Shown one piece after another: positions 17,386-60,978 of a stretch of DNA of 64,000 bases (positions are counted from its first letter, which is position 1; every line of letters begins with the position of its first letter). Below the pieces are notes generated by a model. That model ran no database searches. It was not told where the DNA came from and was given only the letters and a program-made list of their open reading frames with translations. Position numbers and translations under genes: made by a program. The DNA comes from Pectobacterium versatile (lineage in GTDB: Bacteria; Pseudomonadota; Gammaproteobacteria; Enterobacterales; Enterobacteriaceae), in contig NZ_JAINZP010000005.1 in the NCBI RefSeq assembly GCF_020166435.1, forward strand, positions 1 to 64,000, written 5' to 3'.

Positions 17386-17448
17386 TATATCCGTCATACT
17401 TCAAGCGGCTTGTGCGTTGGCTTCACGCAACTCGAATTATTTAGGATA
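17386..17448 (-). repeat. Short ERIC derivative (both ends, core deleted) at the rmuC 3' end
   Basis: This 63-base element joins a left ERIC end (TATATCCGTCATACTTCAAG) directly to a right end (AACTCGAATTATTTAGGATA) and lacks the central ERIC core. It matches the ends of the five longer elements of this window. The element contains the rmuC stop codon (TAA complementary to 17441-17443), so the last residues of RmuC are read from repeat sequence. Confidence 0.75.
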
Positions 17449-19000
17449 GGTTACGGGTAGATAAGGGGGGTTCCCCTTCTTCACCCTCCGTTTTCACAGT
17501 TGGTGAAACCGCGTCGGGTGCTACGGAATCCGGTAATTCATCGCGTTCAGCGTGCTCATGGGCCGTTGCTTTTTCTGCTAATGACGGGCTGATCGTGCGT
17601 TTAATTTCTACGCCCAGTGCACGGAACCCCTCAGCCTGGCCAATAAGGTTACCACGCCCAGAAGAAAGTTTATTCATCGCCTGACGATAAGTGCCCTGCG
17701 CTTTATCCAGACTTTGCCCCAGCGCTTCCATATCATCCACAAACAGCCGCAACTTATCATATAACCGTGAGGCTTTCTCGGCGATCTGCTGTGCGTTGCG
17801 GCTCTGTTGTTCATAGCGCCATAAATTGTTGATGGTGCGTAGTGCCACCAGCAGCGTGGTCGGGCTGACCAGCATAATATTGTGCTTTAACGCGTCGTTG
17901 ATCAATTCGGGCTGGCGATCGATAGCGACCAGAAAAGCAGGTTCGACGGGAATAAACATCAGCACATAATCTAGCGAACGCAGCCCTGGAAGCTGCTGGT
18001 AATCTTTGCTGCTCAACTGCCGAATATGACTGCGAACCGAGAGCAAATGTTCGTTCAGCGCCACACTCCGCTCTGCATCATCGTCACTATTGAAATAGCG
18101 TTCGTAGGCCACCAGCGACATCTTGGCATCGATCACGACATCTTTGCCCTGCGGTAAACGCACAATGACATCCGGTTGCAGGCGGCTATTTGTGCCTGTT
18201 TGCACGCTGACCTGAGTTTGATACTCGTAGCCTTCACGCAGGCCGGAGGCTTCCAGCACGCGGCTTAACACCACCTCTCCCCAGTTACCCTGCGTTTTAT
18301 TGTCGCCCTTCAGTGCTTTCGTCAGGTTGATGGCTTCATGTGCCATCTGCGCGTTCAGCTGTTGCAGATTGCGGATTTCATGCGCCAGCGTGTGACGTTC
18401 GCGCGCTTCCGCACCAAAGCTGTCCTGCACCTGACGGCGGAACCCATCAAGCTGCTCACGCAGCGGCATCAGCAGCTTATCCAGACTCTGTTTATTTTGT
18501 TCATCCACTTTGCGGCCGCTGTGTTCAAAAATCCGGTTCGCCAGATTCTCAAACTGCGTCGTCAACCGCTGTTCGCTGTTTGCCAGCAGTCGCTGCTTCT
18601 CTTCCGCCGCCATACGGGTTTCTTCCAGCCGAATGGTAACTTCCCGCAGCTCCGCTTCCTGCGCGCTATTGATTTCACGCAGCGTTCGCAGTTCCTGATT
18701 TAACTGCACGCACTCTTCACGGAGTTCAGTAAGCTGTTGCAGCTTTTCATGGCTGGCAGAGAGTTGAGCATGAACCGTGCGCAGCTCCAGCTCGTTTTGC
18801 CGCAGCCGCTGTTCGTCCTGCTGCTTTATCTGCTGCTGTTCGCTGAGTGACTGCTGAGTCTGCTGCAATGTCTGCGCCAGCAACTGCTGTTCGGTGTCAT
18901 GCCGCGACAACTTCTGCTGATGAATCAGGCTGGCAATTAACCACCCGACCAACAGACCCACTGCACTGCCGCTCAGACCATAAAATATGCTGATATCCAC
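17441..19000 (-). CDS. rmuC: DNA recombination protein RmuC
   Basis: RmuC limits inversions between short repeats and is predicted to be a nuclease-like protein. The 519-residue product has an N-terminal membrane helix (GLSGSAVGLLVGWLIASLI), a long glutamine-rich coiled coil over about residues 30-190, and the C-terminal RmuC domain with PDVIVRLPQGKDVVIDAKMS as the restriction-endonuclease-like core (D and DAK). The tail after about 470 is variable. The stop codon lies inside a short ERIC derivative. In E. coli rmuC is followed upstream by udp; here the argHBC/argE/ppc block intervenes. Confidence 0.94.
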   Translation of the reverse strand: MDISIFYGLSGSAVGLLVGWLIASLIHQQKLSRHDTEQQLLAQTLQQTQQSLSEQQQIKQQDEQRLRQNELELRTVHAQLSASHEKLQQLTELREECVQLNQELRTLREINSAQEAELREVTIRLEETRMAAEEKQRLLANSEQRLTTQFENLANRIFEHSGRKVDEQNKQSLDKLLMPLREQLDGFRRQVQDSFGAEARERHTLAHEIRNLQQLNAQMAHEAINLTKALKGDNKTQGNWGEVVLSRVLEASGLREGYEYQTQVSVQTGTNSRLQPDVIVRLPQGKDVVIDAKMSLVAYERYFNSDDDAERSVALNEHLLSVRSHIRQLSSKDYQQLPGLRSLDYVLMFIPVEPAFLVAIDRQPELINDALKHNIMLVSPTTLLVALRTINNLWRYEQQSRNAQQIAEKASRLYDKLRLFVDDMEALGQSLDKAQGTYRQAMNKLSSGRGNLIGQAEGFRALGVEIKRTISPSLAEKATAHEHAERDELPDSVAPDAVSPTVKTEGEEGEPPLSTRNLS

Positions 19001-25805: not shown

Positions 25806-26110
25806 AAAAATATCCTCCAGAGCATTTACCGGAATAGCCTTACCCGGCAAAAACACAGTCTAAAATCAGTTTCTTTTTTTGTTTTCTACTTATTTTTTCT
25901 TTTATTGTAAACCTATTATTTAAAAGATTTATTTTGGTTTGAAAAAGCCATTAAATTGATTAAAAAACCAGACCAATTATCAAATAATGGCAACAAAAAG
26001 CCCCTTATAGACTAACCATGTGACGAGCTTCATGTTTTATTGGTTTGTTTTTTCTTCTTTAAGTTTTTACTATCGGTGGAAATAATTCGGCCAAAAATAA
26101 CATAAGTCGA
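25806..26110. other. A+T-rich divergent control region of the sugar-acid module
   Basis: The region between the divergent dehydratase and PTS genes is strongly A+T-rich and has no credible reading frame. It holds the ribosome-binding site of the dehydratase gene at its left end. Promoters and a GntR-type operator probably lie here, but I cannot point to a convincing operator. The remaining part up to the PTS gene is an ERIC element, listed separately. Confidence 0.5.
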
Positions 26111-26235
<125 letters not shown>

Positions 26236-36020: not shown

Positions 36021-36199
36021 TATACCCGTCATACTTCAAGCTGCTTGTGCGTTCGCTGCCCTTATTCACCCCAGTCACTTATCTAAGTAAGCTCATAGGG
36101 ATTCACGCAGTTACCGCGTTACAAGGCCATAAAGGGTCAACGCATAGCGTTGTTTAAAACGCTAACGTTTTGTCACGCAACTCGAATTTTTTAGGGTAC
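36021..36199 (-). repeat. ERIC element with internal hairpin insertion, inverted
   Basis: Read on the minus strand it begins TACCCTAAAAAATTCGAGTT and has the classic core GTGAATCCC, GAGCTTACTTAGATAAGTGA and CTGGGGTGA. It ends GCTTGAAGTATGACGGGTAT. An insertion between the left end and the core contains the hairpins AAAACGTTAGCGTTTT and CAACGCTATGCGTTG, related in design to those of the element at 41365-41710. Confidence 0.85.
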
Positions 36200-36572
36200 A
36201 GATAATAAACCTTGATCACCGAACTGTTGTAAAAAAATATAAATTAAATCGCCGTTAACACAAACATTCTCACATAATAATTCACTCATGAATGAATTGA
36301 ACTATATTTTTCCATGGCCTATAGCTTGCATTTCAATAAATAACAAATGGTTAAATAATATATATTTATTCATGTGGTATATTTTTTATTTTCAACACCA
36401 TGATATCAGGCCACCATTTATAATTTAGTTTTTTTTTAGAAAAAAAACATCATCCAAATACCCTAGGTAATTTTACAAAAAGACCACAATGGTGTTAAAA
36501 ATCAATAAAATACCTTAGAATATAAAAATGAGAATCTATTTTTAGAGATGCTAAATAAATAGCCTGGCGAAT

Positions 36573-36668: not shown

Positions 36669-38330
36669 TTAGAACGTCGTCCAGTCGCCGTCATTGCCCT
36701 TATTCTTCGCCGCCGCAGGCGCTAAAGACAGCGTTGGCGTGCGCGTTGGTGCCGCTGCATAAGAAGCAGTTTTGCCGCTGCCATATGACTGCAATTTAAA
36801 CGCGCTTACCGCTTCCGCCAGAACAGAGGCCTGTGATTGCAGAGACAACGCCGCAGAAGCCGATTCTTCAACCAGAGCCGCATTCTGCTGGGTCGTGGTA
36901 TCAATCTGCCCAACCGCCAGATTCATTTGGTTAATTCCGTCGCTCTGTTCGCGGCTGGCCTGAGAGATTTCACTGATAATCTCATTCACATCCCGCACAT
37001 AGCCCGTTAATCCACTCATCGTTTCTTCGGCGGTATCCACCAGCGACATCCCTTCCTGAATCTTGCTCACGGAGTCGTCAATCAAATCCTTGATCTCTCG
37101 TGCGGCGGTCGCACTGCGCTGTGCCAGGGAACGCACTTCCCCCGCCACCACCGCAAAGCCACGTCCTTGCTCGCCCGCACGCGCGGCTTCAACCGCTGCG
37201 TTCAACGCCAGAATGTTGGTCTGGAACGCAATGCCGTCAATCACGCCAATGATCTCCGCCATACGCTGAGACGAATCACGAATGCCGCGCATTTTCTGCG
37301 TCACGGAAACCATGACATCACCGCTTTGCTTCGCTGCACCAGAGGCTTTATTCGCAATGTCTGTCGCCTGCTGAGTGTTTTCCGCCGTGTTCTTAATGGT
37401 AGACGTCAGCTGTTCCATCGATGCCGCCGTTTCTTCCAGCGAGCTGGCCTGCTCTTCGGTGCGCGATGATAAATCCTGATTACCAGCGGCGATTTGCGAG
37501 GCCGCCGTCGAGATCGTTTCAGCCCCGTCACGTACCTGCCCGACAATCGTGCTCAGGCTGGTGTTCATGTGATCCAACGATTGCAGCAGCAATCCGGTTT
37601 CATCTTTGCTGGTAACAGTGATACGTGAGGTCAGGTCGCCCTGTGCCACTCTGTCTGCCACTTGCAAAGCCTGCTGTATCGGTCGGGTTACGCTGCGCGT
37701 AATTGACCAGGCAATCAGTGCTCCAAATACGGCGCCCAGCGCTAAAATAAGCAACAAAATCATGCGGGTGTTGCTGTATACCTCAGCCATCGCTTCAATG
37801 GAGGTATCCATTGCATCATCTTGATAATTCACCAATTGTCTTACCGCATCGCGGTACTGACGTTGGGTGACATTCAAGTTGTTGTTGAACTCCTCAATCG
37901 CCGCGTCCCGATTACCCGCCACCACTTCGCTGATAATCTTGTCACCGGATTTCAAAAATTCGTTACGGATTGCGCGGATAGCACGCAGCTGGGAAATCGA
38001 ACGCTCTTCAACCGTCTGGCTTTCCAGCTTGTCCAGCAAGCGGCCAATCTCCTGACGGAACCCATTCACACGGTCGACGTTTTCCTTGATTTTATCCTCG
38101 CCTGAAACCAACATCAGCCGCTGATACGCCACCAGAATGCTGTTTACATTATCGATAAGATTATTTGAATCAACCGTTTGTGGATAAACCTCTTTCACAA
38201 TGTCTCTGGCGCCATCCTGGAAACCGGATAACTTAGACAGGGAAAAGATACTCACGACAAATAACATCAAAATCAGGACGGCAAACCCAGCTCCCAGCCG
38301 ATAGCCGATACGCCAATTCGCTAAATTCAT
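36669..38330 (-). CDS. Methyl-accepting chemotaxis protein with C-terminal DWTTF tether
   Basis: This is a transmembrane chemoreceptor that controls the CheA kinase. Its 553 residues comprise a first membrane helix at about 11-33 ([18 protein letters not shown]), a periplasmic ligand domain to about 190 of four-helix type, a second helix at about 191-212 ([20 protein letters not shown]), a HAMP domain to about 265, and a long cytoplasmic coiled coil. The hairpin tip includes [20 protein letters not shown], where CheA and CheW bind. The C terminus DWTTF resembles the NWETF pentapeptide that recruits CheR and CheB. A sigma-28 promoter lies about 330 bases upstream. It is paralogous to the receptor at 39275-40897; the ligand is unknown. 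Confidence 0.95.
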
Positions 38331-38924: not shown

Positions 38925-39186
38925 TATACTCTAAATAATTCGAGTTTCAGGACAAAAATGGCAAGGCGTTTTTGAACAGCGCTTGCGCTGACCCCGAAGG
39001 GGTGAGGCCATAAGGCCGAATAACGCGGCAAGCGAAGGAATCCCAAGTAAGTGATTCGGGTGACTGACAAACTTGCCAGAGGCTGGTTTGAACGCTGCTT
39101 GCAGCGGCCCCAACGGGGCGAGACACACTCAAGTGTGTCGAGTAGCGTAGCCAACGCACATGCAACTTTAAGTATGACGAGTATAT
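38925..39186 (+). repeat. Expanded ERIC element with hairpin cassettes
   Basis: It starts TATACTCTAAATAATTCGAG and ends CTTTAAGTATGACGAGTATA. The left half of the ERIC core (GAGCTTACT) is missing; AAGTAAGTGATTCGGGTGA remains. Inserted hairpins include AGCGCTTGCGCT, CCCCGAAGGGG and GGCCATAAGGCC before the core. After the core come CGCTGCTTGCAGCG, GCCCCAACGGGGC and GACACACTCAAGTGTGTC. Confidence 0.85.
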
Positions 39187-39274: not shown

Positions 39275-40897
39275 CTATTTCTTTGCCAACGCCAGAGACA
39301 GCGTGGGTGTGCTCATTGACATCGGCGCATAAGACCCAGCGTGACTACTGTACGACTGTATTTTAAACGCGCTCACCGCTTCCGCTAGAACGGAAGCCTG
39401 TGATTGCAGAGACAGCGCCGCAGAGGCCGATTCTTCAACCAGAGCCGCATTCTGCTGGGTCGTGGTATCAATTTGTCCAATCGCCAGATTCATCTGGTTA
39501 ATCCCGTCACTCTGTTCACGGCTGGCCTGCGAAATCTCGCTGATAATGTCGTGTACGTCCTTCACGTGGGCCGTTAATCCACCCATCGTTTCTTCAGCGG
39601 TATCAACCAGTTCCATTCCTTCACGGATTTTGCTCACGGAGTCGTCGATCAAATCCTTGATCTCCCGTGCGGCGGTCGCACTGCGCTGTGCCAGAGAACG
39701 CACTTCTCCCGCGACCACGGCAAAGCCACGCCCTTGTTCACCCGCACGCGCGGCTTCAACGGCTGCGTTCAGCGCCAGAATGTTGGTCTGGAAAGCGATA
39801 CCATCAATCACGCCGATGATCTCCGCCATACGCTGGGATGAATCACGAATGCCGCGCATTTTTTGCGTCACGGAAAGCATGACATCACCACTTTGTTTCG
39901 CCGCACCGGTTGCCTTATTGGCAATCTCCGTCGCCTGTTGGGTGTTTTCCGCGGTGTTTTTAATGGTGGATGCCAGTTGCTCCATTGAAGCTGCAGTTTC
40001 TTCCAGCGAGCTGGCCTGTTCTTCAGTACGCGATGACAGATCCTGGTTACCGGCCGTGATTTGTGACGCCGCCGTCGAGATCGTTTCCGCACCATCACGC
40101 ACCTGGCCGACAATCGAGCTCAGGCTGGTATTCATGCGATCCAACGATTGCAGCAGCAATCCGGTTTCATCCTTGCTGGTCACCGTGATGTGTGAAGTCA
40201 GATCGCCCTGCGCCACTCTGTCTGCTACTTGCAAAGCCTGCTCTATTGGGCGGGTTACGCTGCGCGTGATCGCCCAGGCAATCAGCGCCCCAAACACGGC
40301 TCCCAGCGCCAAAATAAGCAACAAAATCATGCGAGTATTGTTGTATACCGCAGCCATGGTTTCGACAGAGTTATCCATCGCATCATTTTGGTAATTCACC
40401 AACTGCTTCACCGAGTCACGGTAATTGCGCTGAATCACGTTCAGGGTGTTATTGAATTCCGCTACGGCGACGTCGTCATTACCCGCCAGCGCATCACTAA
40501 TAATTTTATCACCAGACTTGATGAACTCAGCACGAAACCCACGGACAATCCCCACCTGCTTGCGGGCAAGCTCACCTGAGGCATTGTTTTCCAGATTGTC
40601 GAGCAGACGGCTAATTTCCTTGCGATACGCCATAATCCTATCGACATATCCCTGACGCTGTTCCTGACCGGATACCAGCATCATCTGCAAATAAGCGACA
40701 AAATGCCCATTCACGTTATCAATGAGGTCATTAGCATCTACCGTTTGCGGATAAACCTCTTTGACGATATCTCTGGCACCATCCTGAAAGGATGACAATT
40801 TAGACAAAGAAAAAATACTCACGGTAAATAACATCAGAATCAAGATGGCAAACCCTCCTCCTAATCGATAGCCAATTCGCCAATTCGCTAAACTCAT
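39275..40897 (-). CDS. Methyl-accepting chemotaxis protein, paralogue without C-terminal tether
   Basis: This chemoreceptor has the same architecture as the one at 36669-38330: membrane helices near 11-33 and 191-212, a periplasmic four-helix ligand domain, HAMP and signalling coiled coil. The two proteins are almost identical from the HAMP domain through the hairpin tip and differ mostly in the ligand domain, as expected after duplication and ligand specialisation. It has 540 residues and ends LSLALAKK, so the CheR/CheB-binding pentapeptide of its neighbour is missing; it probably relies on other receptors in the array for adaptation. Its own sigma-28 promoter lies about 230 bases upstream. 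Confidence 0.95.
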
Positions 40898-41364: not shown

Positions 41365-41710
41365 TATACCCTAAATAATTCGAGTTTCAGGACAAAACGT
41401 TAACGTTTTGAACAACGCGAAGCGTTAGCCCTTTAGGGCGATGCTCAGAAATGAGCATCGTAACACGGCAAGAGAAGGACAAATTCGTCGGGAACGAATT
41501 TGACCAGCCAACGGCTGGCCTTCGGTGAGAGACAGGATGTCTCTCATTTCATCCCGATGAGCTTACTCAGGTAAGTGATTCGGGTGACTGACAAACCTGC
41601 CAGAGGCTGGTTTGAACGCTGCTTGCAGCGGCCCCAACGGGGCGAGACACACTCAAGTGTGTCGAGTAGCGCAGTCAACGCACATGCAACTTGAAGTATG
41701 ACGGGTATAT
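41365..41710 (+). repeat. Largest expanded ERIC element, about a dozen consecutive hairpins
   Basis: It starts TATACCCTAAATAATTCGAG, ends CTTGAAGTATGACGGGTATA and keeps the full core GATGAGCTTACTCAGGTAAG with TCGGGTGA. Successive palindromes are at 41394-41409, 41414-41426, 41428-41439, 41440-41459, 41481-41501, 41504-41518, 41527-41545, the core at about 41555-41585, 41617-41630, 41631-41643 and 41646-41663. Almost every base belongs to a short hairpin. It lies between the second chemoreceptor's promoter and the metE terminator. Confidence 0.85.
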
Positions 41711-41765: not shown

Positions 41766-44030
41766 TTACTGGGTTTCACGCAGACGTTGTGCTGCCTGAA
41801 CCATATTCGCCAGAGCCTGACGCGTTTCCGGCCAGCCACGAGTTTTCAGACCGCAATCCGGGTTAACCCACAGGCGTTCCGCTGGGATACGCTGCGCCGC
41901 TTTCTTCAGCAGATCTTCCATCCATTCCACGCTCGGTACGTTCGGGGAGTGGATATCATAAACGCCTGGGCCGATTTCATTCGGGTACTCAAACTCTTCA
42001 AACGACTCCAGCAATTCCATATCGGAACGAGAGGTTTCAATCGTGATCACGTCTGCATCCAGCGCGGCGATAGAATCCATGATGTCGTTGAACTCGCAAT
42101 AACACATGTGGGTATGGATTTGCGTATCATCTTTCGCCACCGCGGCATTCAGACGGAAGGCATCCACCGCCCATGCCAGATAAGCATCCCAGTCAGAGCG
42201 GTGCAGCGGCAGACCTTCACGCAGTGCCGGTTCGTCAATCTGGATGATACCAATGCCTGCGGCTTCCAAATCTGCCACTTCATCACGCAGCGCCAGCGCA
42301 ATCTGCTTGGCGATGGTTTCACGCGTAACGTCTTCACGCGGGAAAGACCAGCACAGGATTGTCACCGGACCTGTCAGCATGCCTTTCATCGGCTTGTCGG
42401 TCAGAGACTGTGCGTATTTCGCCCACTCAACGGTGATCGCTTCTGGACGGCTCACATCACCAATGATAACAGGCGGCTTCACACAGCGAGAACCGTAGCT
42501 CTGCACCCAGCCGTTCTGGGTAAAGATAAACCCATCCAGATGCTCACCGAAGTATTCCACCATGTCATTACGCTCGGCTTCACCGTGCACCAGCACGTCA
42601 AGACCCAGGCGCTCTTGCTCAACCACGGCTTGCTTGATGTGCTCAGCAATACCAGTGCGGTAGTTATTGCTATCCAGACGACCCTGTTTGAAATCTAAGC
42701 GCAGGCCGCGAATTTCGGTGGTTTGCGGGAAAGAACCGATTGTGGTGGTCGGCCATGCTGGCAGATTAAAACGCTCACGCTGAGCATCTGCACGAACCGA
42801 ATACACGTTCTGACGCTGGCTGTCCTGTGCGGTGATGGCCGCCAGACGCTGTGTCACAGCGGCGTTATTCACACGCGTTGAGGTACGGCGAGCACGAATC
42901 GGTGCGCTATAGGCTTCCAGTGCCTGACCGTTGCCGCTGTTCAGCGCCTGGGACAGCAGTGACAGCTCCGCACATTTCTGAATGGCAAAGGCAAACCAGC
43001 TCTTCACTTCATCATCCAGACGTACCTCCACGCTCAGATCGATAGGACTATGCAGCAGTGAACATGAGCTTCCCAGCCACAGATCGCGCGTTCCCACCAG
43101 CGGTTGCAGACGCTCGAACCAGCTGCTCAGGTCAGCACGCCAGACGTTACGGCCGTTAATCACCCCCAGAGACAGGACCCAGTTAGCAGGCAGTTGGGCG
43201 CTCAGCGTAGCGGCATCATCCTTACCGTGAACCAGATCGATATGCAGCCCCTGAACCGGCAGCGCTTTGATTGTTTCCAGATTCTGGCTAACGCTATCGA
43301 AATAAGTCGTCAGCAGCAGTTTCACCTGACCTTGCAGTGCGTCATAAGCCGGTTTAAACGCGGCCAGCCACTCTTGCGACAGTTCCAGTGCCAGTGCAGG
43401 TTCATCAATCTGCACCCACTCAATGCCGCGCTTCGCCAACTCAGCCAGCACCTGCTGGTAAACTGGCAGAATGTCCTGCAACAGCGACAGACGGTCAAAC
43501 TGCTCGCCTTTCACTTTGCCCAGCCACAGGTAGGTAACCGGACCTAACAGAACAGGCTTCACATTATGGCCCAGCGCCAGCGCTTCATCGACTTCATCCA
43601 GCAGCTGTGTCCAGGTCAGCTTGAACTGCTGCCCTTTGGTGAATTCCGGTACCATGTAGTGATAGTTAGTGTTAAACCACTTGGTCATTTCTGCCGCAGC
43701 AGCAGGTTGACCGGTTGGTGCGCGTCCACGACCAATACGGAACAGCGTATCCAGATCGACCGAGCCGTCTTCATTCTGATGGCGCGCAGGCACGTTACCC
43801 AACAGCAGACTCGTGGTCAGCACATGGTCGTACCAAGCGAAATCACCCACTGGCAGCAGATCAACGCCAGCATCCTTCTGTTGTTGCCAATGACGCGCAC
43901 GCAGCTCACGTCCAACGGTCAGCAACTCTTCCTGTGTCGCGTTACCTGCCCAGTAGTTTTCCTGCGCTTTTTTCAGTTCACGGCGTAGTCCAACGCGCGG
44001 AAAACCCAGTGTATGATTCACAATCGCCAT
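41766..44030 (-). CDS. metE: Cobalamin-independent methionine synthase MetE
   Basis: MetE transfers a methyl group from 5-methyltetrahydropteroyl-triglutamate to homocysteine to make methionine without vitamin B12. The product has 754 residues (753 in E. coli), an N-terminal and a C-terminal barrel. Zinc ligands are visible in [11 protein letters not shown] (His and Cys) and [11 protein letters not shown] (Cys). It is divergent from its activator gene metR; the 104-base gap carries MetJ-like boxes and a palindrome. Confidence 0.98.
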
Positions 44031-56167: not shown

Positions 56168-57271
56168 ATGAAAATTTTGGTCATCGGCCCTTCCTGGGTC
56201 GGCGATATGATGATGTCGCACAGCCTTTATCGCACGTTGAAGGCTGAACACCCGGAAGCGGTCATTGACGTGATGGCGCCAGCCTGGTGCCGCCCGCTGC
56301 TGGCACGGATGCCGGAAGTCAATCAGGCGTTAGCCATGCCGCTGGGTCACGGCGCACTTGAGCTGGGCGAACGTCGCCGTCTTGGCGTATCGCTGCGCGA
56401 TGCGAACTATGACCGCGCTTACGTGCTGCCCAACTCCTTGAAATCCGCGCTAGTCCCTTTCTTTGCTAACGTTCCGCAGCGTACAGGCTGGCGTGGCGAA
56501 ATGCGTTACGGATTGCTGAACGACGTACGCGTGCTGGATAAAACCGCATTTCCGCTGATGGTGCAGCGCTATACCGCGTTAGCCTACGATCGTAGCCGTA
56601 TCCGCCGTGCTGAGGATCTGCCGCAGCCGTTACTGTGGCCACAGTTGCAGGTCAATCAGACCGAAATTACGGACATGACGCAAGCGTTTAACCTCAGCGA
56701 TGCGCGCCCCATCATCGGTTTTTGCCCCGGTGCCGAATTCGGCCCTGCCAAACGCTGGCCGCATTATCACTATGCTGTGCTGGCACAATCACTGATTGAA
56801 CGCGGCTACCAGATAACACTGTTCGGTTCGGCCAATGACCGTTCGGCCTGTGACGATATCCTTCAAGGATTGACGGAAGACGCACGGCAGCATTGCGCCA
56901 ATCTGGCGGGGAAAACCTCTCTGGAACAGGCGGTGGTGCTCATTGCCGCCTGCCACGCCGTCGTCAGCAATGACTCTGGACTCATGCACGTTGCTGCGGC
57001 ACTTCATCGTCCGCTGGTGGCACTTTACGGTCCAAGCAGCCCTGATTTTACCCCGCCGCTGTCTCATCAGGCCGAGGTGATTCGACTGATTACCGGCTAT
57101 CACCGGGTGCGCAAAGGGGATGCTGAACAGGGTTACCATCAAAGTTTGATCGACATTCAGCCCGAGCGCGTGCTCAGCGCACTGGATAACTATATTGTTC
57201 CAAGAGAAAGCCTCGTTCCAAAAGAAAGTCTCACTCTAGGAGAAAATCTGGAACCGGGAGCAGATGCATGA
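56168..57271 (+). CDS. waaF: ADP-heptose:LPS heptosyltransferase II WaaF
   Basis: WaaF adds the second heptose to the LPS inner core at the cytoplasmic face of the inner membrane. The product is a family 9 glycosyltransferase beginning KILVIGPSWVGDMMMSHSL, with the donor-site block FCPGAEFGPAKRWP and the C-terminal SNDSGLMHVAAAL. At 367 residues it is about 19 longer than E. coli WaaF. The excess is a C-terminal tail made of three six-residue units (VPRESL, VPKESL, TLGENL) encoded by an 18-base tandem repeat. Its stop overlaps the waaC start by four bases. Confidence 0.97.
   Translation: MKILVIGPSWVGDMMMSHSLYRTLKAEHPEAVIDVMAPAWCRPLLARMPEVNQALAMPLGHGALELGERRRLGVSLRDANYDRAYVLPNSLKSALVPFFANVPQRTGWRGEMRYGLLNDVRVLDKTAFPLMVQRYTALAYDRSRIRRAEDLPQPLLWPQLQVNQTEITDMTQAFNLSDARPIIGFCPGAEFGPAKRWPHYHYAVLAQSLIERGYQITLFGSANDRSACDDILQGLTEDARQHCANLAGKTSLEQAVVLIAACHAVVSNDSGLMHVAAALHRPLVALYGPSSPDFTPPLSHQAEVIRLITGYHRVRKGDAEQGYHQSLIDIQPERVLSALDNYIVPRESLVPKESLTLGENLEPGADA
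57197..57250 (+). repeat. Three 18-base tandem repeats inside the 3' end of waaF
   Basis: Copies at 57197-57214, 57215-57232 and 57233-57250 share a GTTCCAAGAGAAAGCCTC pattern; the third is more diverged. They keep the reading frame and add a six-residue repeat to the WaaF C terminus. Confidence 0.8.
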
Positions 57272-58239
57272 GAGTGCTGATCGTGAAAACGTCGTCAATG
57301 GGCGATGTGCTGCACACCTTGCCAGCCTTAACCGACGCGATGCAGGCGATTCCTGGTATCCAATTCGATTGGGTGGTTGAAGAAGGTTTCGCGCAAGTTC
57401 CCAGCTGGCATCCGGCGGTTTCTCGCGTGATTCCAGTCGCGATACGCCGCTGGCGCAAAAGTTGGTTCAGTGCCCCGATACGTCAGGAACGTGCAGAATT
57501 TATGCGCCAGCTACGACAGCACCGCTACGATGCAGTTATTGATGCACAAGGGCTGATTAAAAGCGCGTTGCTGGTTACGCGACTCGCCAACGGAAAGAAA
57601 CACGGCTTGGATTGCAAAAGCGCGCGCGAGCCGCTGGCAAGCTGGTTTTATAACTATCGCCACCCGATAAGCCGCCGACAACATGCTGTCGAGCGCGTGC
57701 GGGAGCTGTTTGCCGCCAGCCTGAGCTATCGGAAACCCACCGAGCGTGGCGATTATGCCATTGCCTCACGCTTCCTCACCCAGTCGCCCGCAGACGCCAA
57801 CCGCTATCTGGTGTTTCTCCATGCCACAACGCGTGATGAAAAACACTGGCCGGAAGCGCACTGGCGTGAGCTGATTGCTCTATTAGCACCGAGTGGATTA
57901 CACATCAAACTCCCTTGGGGAGCGGAGCATGAGCACCAGCGTGCATTGCGGCTGGCGGAAGGCTTTCCACACGTTGACGTCTTACCACGCCTTACGCTGC
58001 AACAGGTTGCCGAGGTACTCGCAGGCGCCAGCGCGGTTGTCTCCGTCGATACTGGGCTTAGCCACCTGACAGCAGCGCTGGATCGTCCGAATATCACCCT
58101 ATACGGGCCAACCGATCCAGGGCTGATTGGCGGTTATGGGATGAATCAGGTGGTGGAAATGTCTGAAAGCCAGAAAATGGAGACCATTCCCGCTAGCCTC
58201 ATCCATCAGAAAGTAGAGAAGCTGATATACACTAAATAA
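57268..58239 (+). CDS. waaC: ADP-heptose:LPS heptosyltransferase I WaaC
   Basis: WaaC adds the first heptose to Kdo2-lipid A. The 323-residue family 9 glycosyltransferase begins RVLIVKTSSMGDVLHTLPAL and contains the late donor-site motif SVDTGLSHLTAAL and the block LYGPTDPGLIGGYG. ATGA overlaps join it to waaF. The stop codon and the final residues (YTK) are read from the left terminus of an ERIC element, so the C terminus was set by that insertion. Confidence 0.97.
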   Translation: MRVLIVKTSSMGDVLHTLPALTDAMQAIPGIQFDWVVEEGFAQVPSWHPAVSRVIPVAIRRWRKSWFSAPIRQERAEFMRQLRQHRYDAVIDAQGLIKSALLVTRLANGKKHGLDCKSAREPLASWFYNYRHPISRRQHAVERVRELFAASLSYRKPTERGDYAIASRFLTQSPADANRYLVFLHATTRDEKHWPEAHWRELIALLAPSGLHIKLPWGAEHEHQRALRLAEGFPHVDVLPRLTLQQVAEVLAGASAVVSVDTGLSHLTAALDRPNITLYGPTDPGLIGGYGMNQVVEMSESQKMETIPASLIHQKVEKLIYTK

Positions 58240-58569
58240 TTCGAGTTTCAGGACAAAAACGGCAAGGCGTTTTTGAACAGCGCTTGCGCTGACCCCGAAG
58301 GGGTGAGGCCATAAGGCCGAATAACGCGGCAAGAGAAGGACAAATTCGTCGGGAACGAATTTGCTCAGCCAGCGGCTGGCCTTCGGTGAGAGACAGGATG
58401 TCTCTCCCTCATCCCGGTGAGCTTACCCAAGTAAGTGATTCGGGTGACTGACAAATCTGCCAGAGGCAGGTTTGAACGCGGCTTGCAGCGGCCCCAGCGG
58501 GGCGAGGTCCACGAAAGTGGGCCGAGTAGCGCGGCCAACGCACATGCAACTTGAAGTATGACGGGTATA
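58226..58569 (+). repeat. Expanded ERIC element between waaC and waaL
   Basis: It starts TATACACTAAATAATTCGAG inside the waaC 3' end and ends CTTGAAGTATGACGGGTATA. Its left cassettes match the element at 38925-39186 (AGCGCTTGCGCT, CCCCGAAGGGG, GGCCATAAGGCC). Its middle cassettes match 41365-41710 (hairpins at 58342-58362, 58366-58378 and 58388-58406). The last hairpin at 58506-58523 (GGTCCACGAAAGTGGGCC) differs in sequence from that of the other two but keeps the fold. Confidence 0.85.
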
Positions 58570-60939: not shown

Positions 60940-60978
60940 CAGTTAACTGGTAGCTGTAGAGCCAGAGGCGGTAGCGTG
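60940..60978 (+). promoter_or_regulatory. JUMPstart element with ops site (RfaH target)
   Basis: The 39-base block contains CAGTTAACTGGTAGCTGTAG, then AGCCAG, then the ops element GGCGGTAGCGTG at 60967-60978. This is the JUMPstart consensus found upstream of enterobacterial LPS and polysaccharide operons. RNA polymerase pauses at ops and recruits RfaH. It lies in the untranslated leader 45 bases before the waaQ start. Confidence 0.93.

Follow-up and report, generated by a model that had tools for sequence, protein, structure and literature searches.

What gives some ERIC elements two to three times their normal length? This question arises from a stretch of Pectobacterium versatile DNA of 64,000 nucleotides (hereafter, the window), in which long elements with ERIC ends lie at 38925, 41365, and 58226. 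ERIC is widely used in strain typing, and the literature that we searched yielded no explanation of what its long forms are made of. Wilson and Sharp reportedly described, in 2006, ~70-bp insertions at specific internal ERIC sites. The three long elements had been picked out in an earlier note on the window, whose starts and end at 58569 we reproduced, whereas its two other ends lay one base too far (the true ends are 39185 and 41709; Table 1). The terminal sequences TATACCCTAAATAATTCGAGTT ... AACTTGAAGTATGACGGGTATA and the palindromic core are present in the window elements, with an incomplete core in the 38925 copy, according to a comparison by eye with the 127-bp sequence given in PMC2759123. 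At 261, 345, and 344 bp, the long elements are indeed two to three times the length of ~127 bp that characterizes ERIC. Genome-wide, ERIC ends with at most 3 mismatches occur 195 times (right) and 197 times (left), and reversed control patterns occur 0 times. What is new in our analysis is that one shared module of the rtT type accounts for the ERIC inserts, with each slot occupied or empty independently.

Table 1. ERIC elements of the window and the modules that they carry (bit scores are those of the covariance model R1)
Feature	Positions	Strand	Length	Remarks
ERIC with modules in slots 1, 2, and 3	41365..41709	+	345 bp	
Slot-1 module of the 41365 element	41390..41469	+		75.7 bits; R1 seed copy; flanking linkers within match
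Slot-2 module of the 41365 element	41477..41555	+		49.0 bits; R1 seed copy
Slot-3 module of the 41365 element	41589..41675	+		81.6 bits; R1 seed copy
ERIC with modules in slots 1 and 3	38925..39185	+	261 bp	Slot 2 empty, core partly absent
Slot-1 module of the 38925 element	38950..39029	+		76.0 bits
Slot-3 module of the 38925 element	39065..39151	+		79.6 bits
ERIC with three modules	58226..58569	+	344 bp	
Slot-1 module of the 58226 element	58251..58330	+		78.2 bits; R1 seed copy
Slot-2 module of the 58226 element, divergent type	58338..58406	+		34.8 bits; unparsed
Slot-3 module of the 58226 element	58449..58535	+		76.0 bits
Further ERIC	36021..36200	-	180 bp	One degenerate slot-1 module (36113-36175, 36.4 bits)
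Plain ERIC	26109..26235	+	127 bp	No modules; empty-slot reference within the window
Shortened ERIC	17386..17450	-	65 bp	

Each insert is a module of ~70-80 bp that runs through hairpin A, AA, hairpin B, hairpin C, GA, hairpin D, and GAGTA, its text approximating GACAAA-hairpin A-TTTGAAC-hairpin B-hairpin C-GA-hairpin D-GAGTA. The linkers are conserved, and the stems differ between copies yet stay paired. The largest element contains the ERIC core and three such inserts, each with four hairpins; the earlier note had counted about a dozen hairpins there. The last hairpins of two elements, quoted by the earlier note as perfect, were located at 41646-41663 and 58506-58523 as it had placed them, and the second contains one G.U pair. 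That the hairpins come in sets of four, that the sets are alike, and that the set also exists outside ERIC are observations beyond that note; the modular design that it proposed stands insofar as strings of hairpins sit in slots, but the unit is the four-hairpin module and not the single hairpin. The fold of the 41365 element is better than expected by chance on each strand: z is -10.6 on one and -9.5 on the other, and none of the 100 shuffles equalled it in either case.

A covariance model (R1), built from 16 inserts chosen by eye (four of them from the window) and giving rough E-values, matches at least 150 copies in this genome. A strict four-hairpin parse allowing Watson-Crick pairs only, which is independent of R1's pairs but was run on R1's matches, succeeded for 254 of 293 matches from this and other genomes. 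The other 39, which were left out of the junction counts, the parse-based G.U/A.C counts, and the parse-score and arm-pairing counts, include 15 slot-2 copies (by eye), the remainder being wrong-strand, truncated, or weak matches. Parse scores of at least 20 were obtained for 139 of 166 parsed representatives, compared with 0 of 1660 shuffles. The slot-2 type is exceptional, with a weak hairpin C and R1 scores of 28.9-51.9 bits; the slot-2 module of the 41365 element belongs to this most divergent type and, its hairpin C being weak, is unparsed under the strict rule. The putative kinship of slot-2 modules with those of the other slots rests on common linkers and on R1, whose seed has one slot-2 copy.

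Modules occupy three fixed sites in ERIC, each directly after GA, and every slot is filled or empty independently. Among 81 element strings, which were taken from the first loci and include some single copies read on both strands, the length classes of 127, ~195-204, 261-273, and 342-345 bp correspond to 0, 1, 2, and 3 inserts, respectively. The GA that precedes hairpin A at the 5' junction is conserved at 72-100% (G) and 88-100% (A) depending on the context, with contexts labeled, here as in the neighbor and closing-stem counts below, by regular expressions that have known errors (some slot-2 copies are labeled slot 1). The element and its flanks were matched in 25 of 25 genomes of the genus, and six of these 25 provide a series at the orthologous site: no ERIC in G381, a plain ERIC in G376, module 2 in G385, module 1 in G386, modules 1 and 2 in G378, and modules 1, 2, and 3 in the genome studied here. 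This comparison bears out the earlier proposal that the hairpins hold fixed slots. The module boundaries are sharp and follow GA, slot 2 reading AAGA^ATCCC when empty and AAGGA[module]ATCCC when filled. As regards the TA target and TA duplication characteristic of ERIC, G381 has an empty site, the flanks of which have diverged. By eye, the same slots are found in Serratia, Klebsiella oxytoca, K. michiganensis, Citrobacter, Leminorella, Atlantibacter, and one E. coli record. Among complete E. coli genomes, 5375 of 5426 match a slot-1-filled ERIC somewhere, and only 7 do so with a coverage of at least 80%. If ERIC does offer slots to a module that rtT and an Aggregatibacter sRNA also possess, the length variation of ERIC would be a matter of module gain and loss.

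With respect to gene surroundings, the 38925 and 41365 elements are flanked by minus-strand genes, namely those for two methyl-accepting chemotaxis proteins (36669-38330 and 39275-40897) and methionine synthase (41766-44030), and the 58226 element sits between plus-strand heptosyltransferase and O-antigen ligase-like genes. The two chemotaxis-receptor genes are arranged in tandem in a duplication-like manner, with a long ERIC on the upper side of each; these two ERICs have the slot-3 module type in common and differ in slot 1, and one of them is without slot 2 and part of the core. The heptosyltransferase ORF (57268-58239) has its stop codon within the 58226 element, the right end of which also contains the mechanically assigned start of the following ORF (58551). 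The sole Rfam match of the window at the gathering score is JUMPstart RNA (60940-60978). We also counted orientation relative to genes for 58 elements of this genome, 7 of them with one neighbor missing, and found no significant bias for either module-bearing ERICs (15 codirectional + versus 8 -) or plain ones (7 versus 3).

The design had been taken to be specific to ERIC, and this does not hold, since the module was found in several hosts. At ten loci it lies between RU-2/YPAL-like flanks (by eye), and three loci (L316, L318, and L331) have other recurring flanks in common. About six lone modules in this genome lie between ATAAAAAA-like and CATAAAAAA-like ends (L319-L323, L326, and L327), and locus L128 represents a further context seen once. 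In distant genomes, the module is often found next to an intact tRNA or tmRNA, where it interrupts a tRNA T-loop sequence (GGTTCGA[module]ATCC...CCA). Of 46 distant loci scanned, 26 (15/26 plus 11/20) have such a gene 45-97 nt away on the same strand; these loci are the best matches of high-scoring genomes and not a random draw. The scan covered 46 of 49 distant loci (L164, L166, and L172 were left out), and the entry for L174 refers to a second module of that locus. Tandem units comprising a copy of the tRNA 3' end and a module occur beside tRNA genes at L150-L153, L158, and L309 and recall the tyrT repeats of E. coli. In Serratia marcescens 106R, the spacer that separates the end of 23S from 5S rRNA holds a module (positions 834-918 of L203), and in Budvicia aquatica one lies just before 5S. 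In the record named Desulfosporosinus sp. PR, the module and its 23S-5S flanks look as they do in S. marcescens (loci compared, L203 and L243), and in view of this likeness its short contig may be a contamination. Klebsiella indica has copies at L195, L241, and L246, the first two with a common downstream flank, CGGTCCGCCAGATGAAGCCG, which is apparently another host repeat. Module matches with E of at most 0.001 were obtained in 159 of 369 genomes of the class (12 candidates scored per genome) and in 50 of 148 genomes of the order (30 candidates per genome), this genome being within both tallies. Pairing of the flanks into a closing stem, which would put the module at the apex of a host palindrome, was considered and rejected. 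Stems of at least 6 bp were counted at 1 of 31 sites in the other distant class, 3 of 27 in the other enterobacterial class, 2 of 62 in ERIC, and 2 of 35 in the tRNA-like class, all within the range covered by mismatched controls (means of 0.8, 1.3, 2.3, and 1.4, respectively).

We postulate, on evenly balanced odds, that the modules form a widespread plug-in four-hairpin family common to unrelated hosts across Gammaproteobacteria (ERIC, YPAL, other palindromic repeats, tRNA/tmRNA 3'-end copies, and an rRNA spacer), which would enter GA^A sites, diverge in a compensatory manner, and bring rtT, AaHKsRNA22, and the ERIC inserts together in a single modular and mobile class of structured elements not described before. 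The module might even be a tiny mobile element in its own right, inserting at GA^A sites and moving as hairpin DNA or via RNA with the help of a putative enzyme; the T-loop-like TTCGA^ATCC of tRNAs would then be one target, and ERIC, YPAL, and others would be further hosts. Such an element would fit the recurrence of the same junction across several hosts, the precision of filled and empty ERIC slots, the T-loop-like TTCGA junctions beside tRNA/tmRNA genes, the copy in the 23S-5S spacer, and the presence of several host repeats within one genome. We nevertheless regard it as unlikely: no target duplication, enzyme, or autonomous version was found, a collection of phages queried with one slot-1 module gave no match, and the nearest neighbor of an ERIC module is mostly of the same class (58 of 73 in slot 1, 14 of 20 in slot 2, and 65 of 74 in slot 3), which suggests that the insertions are old and have been passed on with ERIC instead of being recent. 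For modules in other contexts, the corresponding counts were 9 of 9 (YPAL) and 18 of 27 (tRNA-like). Given these same-class neighbors, the slots look anciently filled, with later exchange. Recombinants with one module and no core (135-147 bp; loci L064, L055, L010, and L034) and fused modules (L020, L112, and L117) were observed, and the exchange between copies suggested earlier is supported. Free exchange between slots is unsupported, as the modules group mostly by slot.

The earlier note had also claimed an excess of paired substitutions and ascribed it to selection on the fold or to cassette exchange. The excess is clear. In alignment A3 (139 distinct rows; alignments A2-A4 were fitted to R1), both sides have changed in 24 of 25 model pairs, and the double-changed cells number 674, versus a mean of 193 after shuffling and 60-131 with partners slid. 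All 13 pairs that RNAalifold itself proposes for A3 show changes on both sides. In addition, a hairpin arm is complementary to its own partner at 96-99% of positions and to the arms of other copies at 45-76%. Exchange between copies is supported, with lineages that are mostly slot specific. Selection on the RNA fold is likely, though not proven, because template switching at palindromes is another source of paired changes and the signal for an RNA strand is modest. That signal lies in the G.U and A.C combinations among mismatched cells, which number 132 versus 82 in A2, 85 versus 39 in A3, and 10 versus 7 in A4; without the closing pair of hairpin C they fall to 94 versus 70 (A2) and 49 versus 32 (A3). 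The independent parse gave 66 versus 24 for unique and 40 versus 18 for clustered copies, and in its distant subset the G.U excess is absent (4 versus 4). We therefore do not take G.U over A.C as proof of an RNA strand, the excess being too weak once the closing pair of hairpin C is dropped.

With so modest a strand asymmetry, template switching remains a rival account of the paired changes: quasi-palindrome correction would keep the hairpins perfect by mutation, with no selection on the fold. The nearly perfect stems, the concentration of the wobble evidence mostly at one pair, and the about equal folding of the two strands are all compatible with it. We consider this account improbable, since the order of the four hairpins, their lengths, and their linkers persist across families, and G.U exceeds A.C in A2 and A3, with or without the closing pair of hairpin C, as well as among clustered copies. 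An origin of the inserts from unrelated hairpins that arose by chance and accumulated through local duplication is scarcely credible: although some copies are recombinant (the short and fused forms above), orthologues change by whole modules at the same boundaries, the same module is present in other hosts, and the excess of paired changes contradicts it, as does the orthologous slot series.

We favor, with a probability of about 0.68, an rtT-type structured module that has been plugged into small repeats, has spread with them, and probably acts in RNA. The additional DNA of ERIC is a discrete structured unit of ~70-80 nt, with four short hairpins and conserved linkers, and we group it with the YPAL/RU-2-like inserts, the Rfam family AaHKsRNA22, and, more distantly, E. 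coli rtT RNA. The ERIC slots would have been filled long ago, and modules would now spread as part of ERIC copies and through recombination among these. Once transcribed, the string of hairpins may act in the RNA through processing, stability, or attenuation. Counting against this explanation are the minus-strand genes on either side of two of the three window elements, the nonsignificant orientation bias, a G.U excess over A.C that is carried largely by one pair and is absent in the distant subset, the failure of slot-2 copies in the strict parse, and the low score of the link to rtT.

Comparison with known systems places the window elements close to ERIC/IRU/RU-1, with which they share the ends, the core, and the 127-bp empty form and from which they differ by adding up to three modules. 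Transcripts of Yersinia ERIC were reported (PMC2229807) to lower the stability of upstream mRNA via an RNase E site in an orientation-dependent manner. In transcripts of this kind, hairpin strings could alter processing, stability, or attenuation. YPAL/RU-2 is a separate repeat, and the module is an insert in YPAL, as at the ten loci with RU-2-resembling flanks.

AaHKsRNA22 (RF02902) has the same four hairpins and linkers as the slot-3 module over its full length. On the slot-3 module of the 41365 element, it aligns over 1-101 of 101 positions with 38.7 bits, below the cut-off of 39.8. It matches this genome at 84 places with E of at most 10, 5 of them above the cut-off, and no slot-2 copy is among the placeable matches; in 14 control genomes, 7 had some match and 0 were above the cut-off. 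This family was named as an Aggregatibacter sRNA and belongs to no Rfam clan, and we found no text tying it to ERIC.

The likeness to rtT RNA (RF00391, E. coli tyrT operon) extends over hairpins B, C, and D with their linkers, placed in the consensus between GGUUCGA and AUCC, which are parts of the tRNA 3' end. Hairpin A is unlike that of the module, and rtT sits in tRNA operons, which is where the ERIC copies of the window differ from it: they lie in no tRNA operon with a copy of a tRNA 3' end. The RtT model gave no match in the window at its cut-off, none on loci L001-L003 with E of at most 5, and 30.8-35.8 bits (cut-off, 45) on some tRNA-linked copies. Conversely, the four best matches of R1 in the tyrT region of E. 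coli K-12 are the rtT repeats (15.6-18.3 bits; the next match has 4.4). Three of them are spaced at 178 bp, beginning with one inside the annotated rttR, and the fourth lies between tyrV and tyrT. The proposed link between module and rtT is thus weak in score. Dispersed rtT-like enterobacterial repeats upstream of gatY, rbfA, and cvpA have been assigned to BIMEs, with attenuation proposed (PMC2965389), and the section of that paper on these repeats mentions neither ERIC nor slots nor a module. Northern signals were reported for Actinobacillus pleuropneumoniae RNAs of the RtT family that lie close to tRNA genes (PMC4986893), so expression is on record for relatives of the module and not for the ERIC inserts. 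Our literature search found no paper that identifies the ERIC insert or links ERIC inserts to rtT. Since the module also occurs in other repeats and beside tRNA genes and is rtT-like, separately named repeats and small RNAs may share one plug-in part; if this is true, separately named families would be joined, and the role of the module could be tested directly in E. coli K-12.
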